A stretch of 64,000 nt of DNA, from assembly GCA_029246685.1 (NCBI GenBank), contig JAQWMR010000016.1, positions 124,001-188,000 on the forward strand. The letters are read 5' to 3'. Positions 5,684 to 9,811 of the stretch are shown in pieces. This stretch comes from Acidimicrobiales bacterium (lineage in GTDB: Bacteria > Actinomycetota > Acidimicrobiia > Acidimicrobiales > Aldehydirespiratoraceae). The first letter of the stretch is position 1, and the number at the start of each line of letters is the position of its first letter. The notes below the pieces were generated by a model. The model ran no database searches and was not told the origin of the DNA. It saw nothing but the letters and a program-made list of their open reading frames with translations. Made by a program: the position numbers and the translations under genes.

Positions 5684-7254
<1,571 letters not shown>

Positions 7255-7255
7255 C

Positions 7256-9046
7256 TCAGCTCTCGCCTTCGAGGAGGTGAGCTTGCGTGGGATCGACAAC
7301 GACGTCGCTGTTGGACTTACCGGCCGGGACCATCGGGAAGACGTTCTCGCCGGCATCGGTGACGAACTCGACGACAACCGGCCGGTCGTTGATCTCGTTG
7401 GCCTTCTCGATCGCGGGAGCGACTTCCTCGGGGGCCTCGACGCGAATCGCGGCACAACCCATCGACTCGGCCCACTTCACGTAGTCCGGCACCCGCTCCT
7501 GGAGGTACACCTCGCTGTAGCGCTCCTCGTAGAACATCTCCTGCCACTGCCGGACCATGCCGAGGTACGAGTTGTTGAGCAGGGCGACCTTGATCGGGAT
7601 GTTCTCGACCGATGCGGTCACGAGCTCCTGCGCTGTCATCTGGAAGCAGCCATCGCCGTCCACGGCCCAGACCCGGCTGTCGGGTCGGCCGGCCTTCGCG
7701 CCGATCGCCGCAGGGATGGAGAAGCCCATCGTGCCGAGACCGCCGGAGTTGATCCAGGTGTAGGGGTGGTCGAACTGCCACCACTGGCTGGCGTACATCT
7801 GATGCTGACCGACGCCGGAGGCGACGATCGTGTCGGCGGGGTTGCCGTCGCGCAGCTCCTCGATGACGTACTGCGGCTTGAGCTTGTCGCCCGGCGCCGA
7901 CTGCTCGTAGGTGAGCGGGAAGTTCTCCTGCCAGCCGGACACCGTCGAGCGCCATGCGCTGCGGTCGACCTGGGCATCAGCGCCGCCCAACTCGCGCATC
8001 GCGTGGTTGATGCCTTCGATGACGAGGCGGCAATCGCCTTGAATACCCACGTTGAACTGGCGAACCTTGCCGAGCTCCGCCGGGTCGATGTCGACGTGGA
8101 TGATCTTTGCGGTCGGGGCGAAGCCGTCGAGCTTGCCGGTGACGCGATCGTCGAAGCGGGCACCGAGCGAGATCAGCAGGTCGCTCTCCTGCATGGCGGT
8201 GACGGCGGTGTAGTTGCCGTGCATGCCCGGCATGCCGAGGCAGAGTTCGTGGCTGTCGGGGAAGGCACCGCGGGCCATCAGCGTGGTGACGACGGGAATC
8301 TGCACCATCTCGGCGAGCTCGCGCAGCGCCTCGGCGGCTCGTGCTTTGAGGATGCCGCCGCCGACGTAGAGGACGGGGCGCTCGGCGTCGCGGATCAGCT
8401 CGGCTGCTTGGCGGATCAGTTCCCGGTCGCCTTCCATCTGGGGCGAGTAGCCGGGCAACTCCATGTCGGCGTCGGTGGCCGCGTACCAGTTCATGTCCGA
8501 ACGAGGATTCGTGGGGTCGACGATGTCCTTCGGGATATCGACGAGCACGGGCCCGGGGCGGCCCGTCGTAGCGATGTGGAACGCCTCGTGGATGACCCGA
8601 GGGATGTCCTGCGCCTCGGTGACGAGGAAGTTGTGCTTGGTGACCGCCATCGTGATGCCGGTGGTGTCGCACTCCTGGAAGGCGTCGGTGCCGATCGCTG
8701 GAACAGGGACCTGGCCGGTGATGCAGACCATCGGGACCGAATCGAGCATCGCGTCGGCCAGCGGGGTCACGATGTTCGTGGCGCCGGGTCCAGAAGTGAC
8801 CATCGCGACGCCGGGCTCGCCGGTGGCGTGGGCGTAGCCCTCAGCCATGTGGCCGGCGCCCTGCTCGTGGCGCACGAGGATGTGGCGGATCGAGCTGTCG
8901 ATGATGGGGTCATAGACCGGCAGGATCGCGCCGCCCGGGTACCCGAAAATCGACTCGACGCCCTCGTGCTCGAGGCTCTTGACGAGGGCCTCACCGCCCG
9001 ACATCTGCTGGTTGTCGCGTTGCTCACTCATTGCGTGGTTGCTCAC
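7256..9046 (-). CDS. ilvB: Acetolactate synthase large subunit
   Basis: The 596-residue ThDP/FAD enzyme condenses pyruvate with pyruvate or 2-ketobutyrate. The catalytic Glu is at about residue 61 (RHEQGAGHMAEGYA), the FAD-domain region is intact (GARFDDRVTGK), and the ThDP/Mg motif GDG...NN lies near 461-490 (DGDGCFQMTAQEL...LLNNSYLG). The start is ambiguous: GTG 9046, ATG 9031 or ATG 9004 are all possible and none has a strong Shine-Dalgarno. It is first in the operon, about 40 bases after an intrinsic terminator preceded by a branched-chain leader peptide, implying attenuation control. Confidence 0.96.
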   Translation of the reverse strand: MSNHAMSEQRDNQQMSGGEALVKSLEHEGVESIFGYPGGAILPVYDPIIDSSIRHILVRHEQGAGHMAEGYAHATGEPGVAMVTSGPGATNIVTPLADAMLDSVPMVCITGQVPVPAIGTDAFQECDTTGITMAVTKHNFLVTEAQDIPRVIHEAFHIATTGRPGPVLVDIPKDIVDPTNPRSDMNWYAATDADMELPGYSPQMEGDRELIRQAAELIRDAERPVLYVGGGILKARAAEALRELAEMVQIPVVTTLMARGAFPDSHELCLGMPGMHGNYTAVTAMQESDLLISLGARFDDRVTGKLDGFAPTAKIIHVDIDPAELGKVRQFNVGIQGDCRLVIEGINHAMRELGGADAQVDRSAWRSTVSGWQENFPLTYEQSAPGDKLKPQYVIEELRDGNPADTIVASGVGQHQMYASQWWQFDHPYTWINSGGLGTMGFSIPAAIGAKAGRPDSRVWAVDGDGCFQMTAQELVTASVENIPIKVALLNNSYLGMVRQWQEMFYEERYSEVYLQERVPDYVKWAESMGCAAIRVEAPEEVAPAIEKANEINDRPVVVEFVTDAGENVFPMVPAGKSNSDVVVDPTQAHLLEGES

Positions 9047-9088: not shown

Positions 9089-9121
9089 AAAAAATGAAAC
9101 GACCTCCCTTCTGGGAGGTCG
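9089..9121 (-). terminator. Intrinsic terminator (attenuator) in the ilvB leader
   Basis: On the minus strand a perfect 9-bp stem CGACCTCCC/GGGAGGTCG with loop AGAA is followed by TTTCATTTTTT. It lies between the leader peptide stop and ilvB, so by position it is an attenuator that cuts transcription when branched-chain aminoacyl-tRNAs are plentiful. Confidence 0.85.
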
Positions 9122-9123
9122 AG

Positions 9124-9162
9124 GCGCACGTTTCCGGGGAAATTCTGGTCGCGAACGTGCGC
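9124..9162 (-). promoter_or_regulatory. Leader hairpin of the ilvB attenuator
   Basis: A perfect 9-bp inverted repeat (GCGCACGTT/AACGTGCGC) with a 21-base loop starts at the last base of the leader-peptide stop codon. A ribosome finishing or stalling in the leader would cover or expose the first arm, so this is the likely pause/antiterminator element. Confidence 0.65.
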
Positions 9163-9224
9163 TAGCTGAGGCCTACTACGAGGACGAGGGCGAGCGACGT
9201 GTTCACGGGCACGAGTATGACCAC
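9162..9224 (-). CDS. ilvB operon leader peptide (branched-chain attenuation)
   Basis: A 20-residue peptide (GTG start, TAG stop) reads M-V-I-L-V-P-V-N-T-S-L-A-L-V-L-V-V-G-L-S: 12 of the 19 residues after the start are Val, Leu or Ile, with the densest run (LALVLVV) just before the stop. It precedes a hairpin and an intrinsic terminator, then ilvB. This is the arrangement of ribosome-mediated attenuators of ilv operons. An in-frame TTG at 9242 would add MPSQRR; the GTG start has only a weak AG-rich sequence upstream, so the exact start is uncertain. Confidence 0.8.
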   Translation of the reverse strand: MVILVPVNTSLALVLVVGLS

Positions 9225-9279
9225 TCTTCGCTGTGATGGCAACGCGGTTGACAATCCTGTCGAAAACAGCGACGAGAAA

Positions 9280-9292: not shown

Positions 9293-9811
9293 GTGATCAA
9301 TCGCGTCGGCGTGTACCCCGGTTCGTTCAACCCGCCGACCCGCGCGCACTTGGAGATCGCGCTCGCCGCGCGAGACACGCACGGGCTCGTGCGTGTCGAC
9401 TTCGCCATCAGCGCGGTCGCGCTCGGAAAGTCCGACGTCGCCCGTCCCACGTTCGACGAACGCGTCGAAGTCATCCACGCCTCGATCGAGGGAGTGGACG
9501 GCCTCGGCGTTCTCATCACCGAGGCTCAGCTCATCGCCGACATCGCCCATGGATACGACATCGTCGTCATGGGCGCCGACAAGTGGACGCAGGTCAATGA
9601 TCCCGCCTGGTACGGAGACGATCACGCCGCCCGCGACGCCGCACTCGCCCGTCTCCCAGGGCTCGCACTGGCGCCACGTCCGCCCCACGCTATCCCCGAC
9701 GAGCATCGTCTTCCCGTCGCCGACGACCTCCTCGAGATCAGCTCGTCGGCCGCTCGCGCCGGCCGCACCGAGTGGATGACCGACGCCGCCCGCACCAGCG
9801 GCCACTGGTAA
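9293..9811 (+). CDS. NadD/CoaD-like nucleotidyltransferase
   Basis: A 172-residue cytidylyltransferase-fold protein. The nucleotide-binding signature is GSFNPPTRAHLEIA (residues 9-22, the T/HxxH motif), and the late ISSSAAR matches the ISSTxxR phosphate motif. MGADKW near the middle is the NadD-type GxDKW element. This would transfer an adenylyl or cytidylyl group; NadD (nicotinate mononucleotide adenylyltransferase) is the closest pattern, but the protein lacks some NadD substrate residues I would expect, so I give no symbol. It diverges from the ilvB leader. Confidence 0.65.
   Translation: MINRVGVYPGSFNPPTRAHLEIALAARDTHGLVRVDFAISAVALGKSDVARPTFDERVEVIHASIEGVDGLGVLITEAQLIADIAHGYDIVVMGADKWTQVNDPAWYGDDHAARDAALARLPGLALAPRPPHAIPDEHRLPVADDLLEISSSAARAGRTEWMTDAARTSGHW

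Follow-up and report, generated by a model that had tools for sequence, protein, structure and literature searches.

The ilvBNC locus and its leader

The window, that is the whole stretch of DNA analysed here, comprises 64,000 nucleotides from an Acidimicrobiales bacterium whose genome consists of 3.8 Mb on 20 contigs. On its minus strand lies the ilvBNC operon for branched-chain amino acid (BCAA) biosynthesis, preceded on the same strand by a promoter-like sequence, a short leader ORF and two hairpins (Table 1). The preliminary description had placed an attenuator in front of ilvBNC, and the identities of the three genes were confirmed by NCBIfam equivalog models, all with scores over the cut-offs. 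The nearest ilvB genes belong to metagenome-assembled genomes of Acidimicrobiales and other Acidimicrobiia, with 94% protein identity for the nearest one. A divergent cytidylyltransferase-like gene (PF01467) is located on the plus strand from position 9293. It begins about 50 bp from the -35 box of ilvB, so that two promoters would lie close together at this site.

Table 1. Features of the ilvBNC operon and its leader (positions in the window)
Feature	Position	Strand	Basis or remark
ilvC, ketol-acid reductoisomerase	5684..6718	-	NCBIfam equivalog model
ilvN, acetolactate synthase small subunit (putative start)	6766..7275	-	NCBIfam equivalog model
ilvB, acetolactate synthase large subunit	7256..9046	-	TIGR00118, 768.8 bits; GTG 9046, possible alternative start ATG 9031
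Intrinsic terminator (predicted)	9089..9121	-	9-bp stem 9121-9113 / 9108-9100 and tail 9099-9089
Hairpin 1, 9 bp, candidate antiterminator	9124..9162	-	Shuffle tests; paired changes in relatives
Leader peptide (ilvL), 14 codons and stop, MNTSLALVLVVGLS (probable)	9162..9206	-	C-terminal L-V-V with GTA codons conserved
Putative control codons GTA GTA (rare valine codon)	9174..9179	-	Codon bias in related loci
-10 box CATACT (putative)	9214..9219	-	CATACT/CATAAT/CAGACT-like hexamer 5-9 nt 5' of the start codon, 59 loci
-35 box TTGCCA (putative)	9237..9242	-	TTG 15-20 nt upstream of the -10 box in 55/59 loci

The leader had been described as an ORF of 20 codons with 12 Val, Leu or Ile residues. 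This frame is indeed open on the minus strand, from GTG 9224 to TAG 9164-9162, and encodes MVILVPVNTSLALVLVVGLS with 12 such residues after the start. Its first six codons, however, coincide with the -10 box CATACT and its surroundings. As the promoter-like sequence TTGCCA-17-CATACT (a single match in 600 bases, 0.1 expected) overlaps the beginning of the frame, GTG 9224 is probably not the true start. Relatives keep a CATACT-like box which is followed 5-9 nt further on by a GTG or ATG, and it is this codon downstream of the -10 box that is conserved as the start. GTG 9206 and a peptide of 14 residues are therefore favoured. The codons are GTG AAC ACG TCG CTC GCC CTC GTC CTC GTA GTA GGC CTC AGC TAG (9206-9162), and 7 of the 14 residues are Leu or Val. 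In the closest relatives the frame is likewise open upstream through the promoter, for example RRVVILVPVNTSPALVLVVGLG in locus L001, because the V-I-L found there is GTCATACTC translated in frame.

Downstream of the ORF, two perfect 9-bp hairpins, the second with a T-tract, are located ahead of ilvB on the minus strand, exactly as first reported. Hairpin 1 begins with the G of the TAG stop codon, so the BCAA-rich ORF does end at the hairpin arm. The arms of hairpin 1 are GCGCACGTT (9162-9154) and AACGTGCGC (9132-9124), separated by a loop of 21 nt. Two bases further on, the stem of the terminator hairpin is formed by CGACCTCCC and GGGAGGTCG around an AGAA loop and is followed by TTTCATTTTTT, with the T-tract ending 42 bp upstream of the ilvB start. 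A terminator search gave this single match in 600 bases, where 0.2 were expected. Both hairpins together fold with -34.9 kcal/mol (z -5.6 against dinucleotide shuffles, 0/200 as good), and the terminator alone reaches a z of -5.5 in the same comparison. Hairpin 1 of the window reached p 0.005 in a stem search with shuffled versions of this stretch as the control. The terminator core occurs once in the genome. A search for a second copy of the attenuator with the pattern GTAGTA..TAGCGC yielded two other matches in the genome, fewer than the reversed control.

Promoter, codons and hairpins in related loci

For comparison we used 81 ilvB loci, the one in the window and 80 related ones. The terminator core RCCTCC..GG[AG]GGY is present within 330 bases upstream of ilvB in 74 of them, and leader ORF and hairpin 1 were recovered by script in 63 loci. 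Variant terminator stems occur in two loci (L062, L073). Upstream of ilvB, no leader was found in L012, L020 and L046, and only remnants were found in L026 and L033. In L020 and L046, as well as in L026 and L033, ilvB, with its leader lost or reduced, directly follows the apparent end of ilvD; the group L029-L047 retains a leader.

The spacing between promoter and start codon is tight. In the window, 7 nt separate CATACT (9219-9214) from GTG 9206, and gaps of 5, 6, 7, 8 and 9 nt were observed in 1, 6, 30, 17 and 5 of 59 loci, with a peak at 7-8 nt. These 59 loci were picked from the 63 for a -10-like hexamer with A at position 2 and T at position 6 within a range of five positions, and the spacing is conditional on this choice. 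By our own estimate such a hexamer occurs by chance in about 1 in 7 GC-rich sequences. The 59 of 63 lie far above this rate, which makes a leaderless leader of 14 residues most likely. Shine-Dalgarno-like sequences (AGGA, GGAG or GAGG) were found in none of the 59 loci within the 12 nt checked. The leader peptide of the window is thus best described as probably leaderless and 14 residues long.

The leaders of the related loci are rich in branched-chain codons (V 26.8%, L 15.6%, I 3.3%). Among their valine codons, GTA accounts for 115 of 187 (61%), whereas its share in the ilvB genes of these loci is 2.4%. The contrast is 25-fold; the nominal p-value cannot be read at face value, since the sequences are related to each other. 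In most loci GTA is located 3-5 codons before the stop. No shift to rare codons was detected for the Leu and Ile codons of the leaders. GTA is also found in most leaders of other actinobacterial families, including the Streptomyces-type MRTRILVLGKRVG. The codon bias points to valine, sensed through the GUA-reading tRNA, as the main signal. Against a role as control codons stands a result from Streptomyces coelicolor, cited in PMC1262725, where alteration of the candidate control codons in the ilvB leader was without effect.

The distances between these codons and hairpin 1 are kept as well. Measured from its central base, the last GUA lies 8-14 nt from hairpin 1 in almost every locus and 13 nt from it in the window; for the stop codon the corresponding distances are about 0-4 nt and 1 nt. 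With a ribosome occlusion of 26 nt, a value taken from PMC13236596, a ribosome at GUA would leave hairpin 1 free and a ribosome at the stop codon would cover it.

In each of the 59 loci, hairpin 1 begins at a distance of 0-5 nt from the first stop-codon base, and in 47 of them it is better than dinucleotide shuffles (p<0.05). Whole-leader alignment with MAFFT misaligned hairpin 1, and RNAalifold recovered the terminator only, so the arms were paired by position. In this comparison 96% of the cells of hairpin 1 are paired, against 57% (maximum 73%) after swapping 3' arms among the loci; for the terminator stem the values are 98.7% and 95.0%. As the arm register is set by the stem itself, these percentages are biased towards pairing. 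Changes on both sides occur in all 8 pairs compared of hairpin 1 and in 5 of 9 pairs of the terminator. A comparison of related leaders had been proposed as a check. Peptide composition, the rare codon GTA, hairpin 1 and the terminator hairpin are all conserved among them, and both stems contain pairs with changes on the two sides.

Some features of the terminator deserve separate mention. In L018-L028 and L078 the leader, hairpin 1 and the terminator stem are kept without a run of four T (e.g. TTTCGCGTGCGG), and termination may be weaker there or of a different kind. The core ACCTCC..GGAGGT is kept in primary sequence across the Acidimicrobiia, although a stem requires no fixed sequence. A similar core occurs in other actinobacterial families (L117, L118, L121, L136, L138-L146). 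Its GGAGGT looks like a Shine-Dalgarno sequence.

Proposed attenuation and the antitermination step

The features of an actinobacterial ilvB attenuator include a position upstream of ilvB(N/H)C on the same strand, a short ORF rich in Ile, Leu and Val codons which is conserved among related loci, and an intrinsic terminator between this ORF and ilvB. These three were found here. We consider it highly probable that the leader is a ribosome-mediated transcription attenuator of this type. A leader peptide with attenuator, as suggested in the preliminary description, remains the best reading. It is supported by the identity of ilvBNC, the conserved GTA codons, hairpins and terminator, and by the tested devices of Corynebacterium glutamicum (PMC11857589) and Mycobacterium tuberculosis (PMC13236596).

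From this anatomy we infer the following course. Transcription would start at or beside GTG 9206, and a ribosome would load on the leaderless 5' end. A shortage of charged valine tRNA, and perhaps of charged leucine tRNA, would slow this ribosome down at CUC-GUA-GUA during translation of MNTSLALVLVVGLS. A ribosome held at the GUA codons would end just short of hairpin 1, which could then form. A ribosome reaching UAG would cover the 5' arm and keep hairpin 1 open. In the open state the terminator (9121-9089) would stop transcription; once hairpin 1 is formed, termination would be weakened and ilvBNC transcribed. For this weakening, the 3' arm of hairpin 1 is most likely also sought by the base of the terminator beside the U-tract.

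Which segment forms the antiterminator had been left undecided at the outset, and folding yielded no structure incompatible with the terminator. The latter forms with a probability of about 1 in almost every locus, whether the ribosome is placed at GUA, at the stop codon or left out. Hairpin 1 has no stem pairs in common with the terminator, and the two coexist in each of these ribosome states. Pairing of the leader or of the hairpin 1 loop with the terminator arms, as in the C. ulcerans model, was also considered, but their complementarity to either arm does not exceed that of shuffles. With no excluding fold and no excess complementarity, a classical antiterminator is not seen. The classical attenuator of the trp type (1:2 / 2:3 / 3:4) was rejected, as hairpin 1 and the terminator do not overlap and fold side by side.

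The leading idea for the last step is a competition at the boundary of the two hairpins. We regard it as quite possible while still short of probable. Two partners would compete for the 3' arm of hairpin 1, namely the 5' arm of the same hairpin and the spacer preceding the U-tract, and the terminator stem would reach the U-tract only if hairpin 1 is open. Such a spacer exists in most relatives, whose first run of four T starts 7-9 nt after GGGAGGT. Its pairing with 2 or more bases of the 3' arm is possible in 54 of 59 loci, where 41 were expected from shuffles, and in L052 it gives a perfect stem of 13 bp. A control with shuffled post-stem spacers lends modest support to this pairing. However, no excess was observed when the hairpin side was shuffled or when spacers were swapped between loci. 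In the window, the extension consists of a weak GUG/CAU plus A-U, and the U-tract directly abuts the stem, so the extension is not needed there. We favour boundary competition because it resembles the competition for a shared boundary triplet for which mutations in C. glutamicum provide support (PMC11857589).

Hairpin 1 might instead be a pause hairpin which holds the RNA polymerase until the leaderless end has received its first ribosome, with the switch residing in another, unseen structure or in a contact between ribosome and polymerase. The coexistence of hairpin 1 and terminator in all folding states is consistent with this, and a pausing role of the first hairpin was proposed for C. glutamicum (PMC11857589). 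We nevertheless consider it rather unlikely: the position of the 5' arm under a ribosome at the stop codon, with the last GUA about half a footprint upstream, is the geometry of an antiterminator, and the short spacing between hairpin 1 and terminator is kept in relatives. It is also conceivable, as a conjecture to which we give little weight, that the terminator is switched by the abutting hairpin without common stem pairs and that the ACCTCC/GGAGGT sequence owes its constancy across several actinobacterial families to a second partner acting in antitermination, either an RNA such as the ribosomal anti-Shine-Dalgarno sequence or a protein.

A leader that binds a metabolite or protein, instead of sensing the ribosome, is very improbable. 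A ppGpp riboswitch controls ilvB in some Firmicutes (PMC10272879), and the terminator core is conserved in sequence beyond what the stem requires; the leader, however, matches no Rfam family, and the transcribed part is short and for much of its length an ORF with biased codons. In a single genome, a lone terminator-like hairpin would look no different. A plain terminator next to a chance ORF, without any regulation, is nevertheless hardly credible given that no gene on the minus strand runs into the terminator and that related loci keep the GTA bias, the peptide, the start spacing and hairpin 1 together in front of ilvB.

Relation to known ilvB leaders

The ribosome-mediated attenuator proposed here has well-studied counterparts. 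The ilvBNC attenuator of C. glutamicum was described by Morbach in 2000 (as referred to in PMC10272879) and was analyzed by mutations (PMC11857589). Both systems share the ilvBNC operon, a GUA control codon (CUU-GUA in C. glutamicum) and a terminator abutting the (here putative) antiterminator hairpin. The leader peptide of C. glutamicum starts one nucleotide from the transcription start, similar to the leaderless start predicted here. In C. glutamicum, however, an early segment (positions 36-38) takes part in the antiterminator, and a GCC triplet belongs to both antiterminator and terminator. Hairpin 1 of the window starts at the stop codon, and the window shows no triplet common to the two hairpins. 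The ilvB1NC leader of M. tuberculosis likewise has an intrinsic terminator before ilvB1, and its BCAA-rich uORF includes L-V-V and a regulatory GUA. Replacement of LVVI by AAAA in this leader left expression low and uninducible. It differs by its length of 166 nt, a proposed mutually exclusive antiterminator and a UGA stop (PMC13236596).

The ilvB leaders of Corynebacterium, Mycobacterium and Streptomyces were described by Seliverstov et al. 2005 (PMC1262725) and resemble the present one in the short BCAA ORF, the terminator and the downstream ilvB. IlvL of Streptomyces, MRTRILVLGKRVG, is leaderless (PMC8079986), and leaderless ilvB leaders are also found in C. glutamicum and S. lividans. In the Streptomyces-type loci of our comparison the terminator sequence differs from the core of the Acidimicrobiia. 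The RNA motifs ilvB-II, ilvB-OMG and ilvB combine a uORF with a structured leader before ilvB, and ilvB-II consists of P1 and the terminator P2. The uORF of ilvB-II spans most of P1 (PMC10272879), in contrast to the ORF of the window, which ends at the first base of hairpin 1. Membership in the ilvB-II motif was rejected, as the ORF does not span a P1-like hairpin and there is no Rfam match.

A search of the leader against Rfam 15 gave no family match, and in the searchable literature we found no paper that joins Acidimicrobiia with leader peptides. The device would be the known actinobacterial ilvB attenuator, and its occurrence in Acidimicrobiia and the alignment look new. The about 60 natural variants may be used for testing the disputed antiterminator of actinobacterial ilvB leaders. 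Attenuation of ilvB with a leaderless leader and a GUA control codon would hereby be extended to the class Acidimicrobiia, which suggests that the device is old in Actinomycetota.
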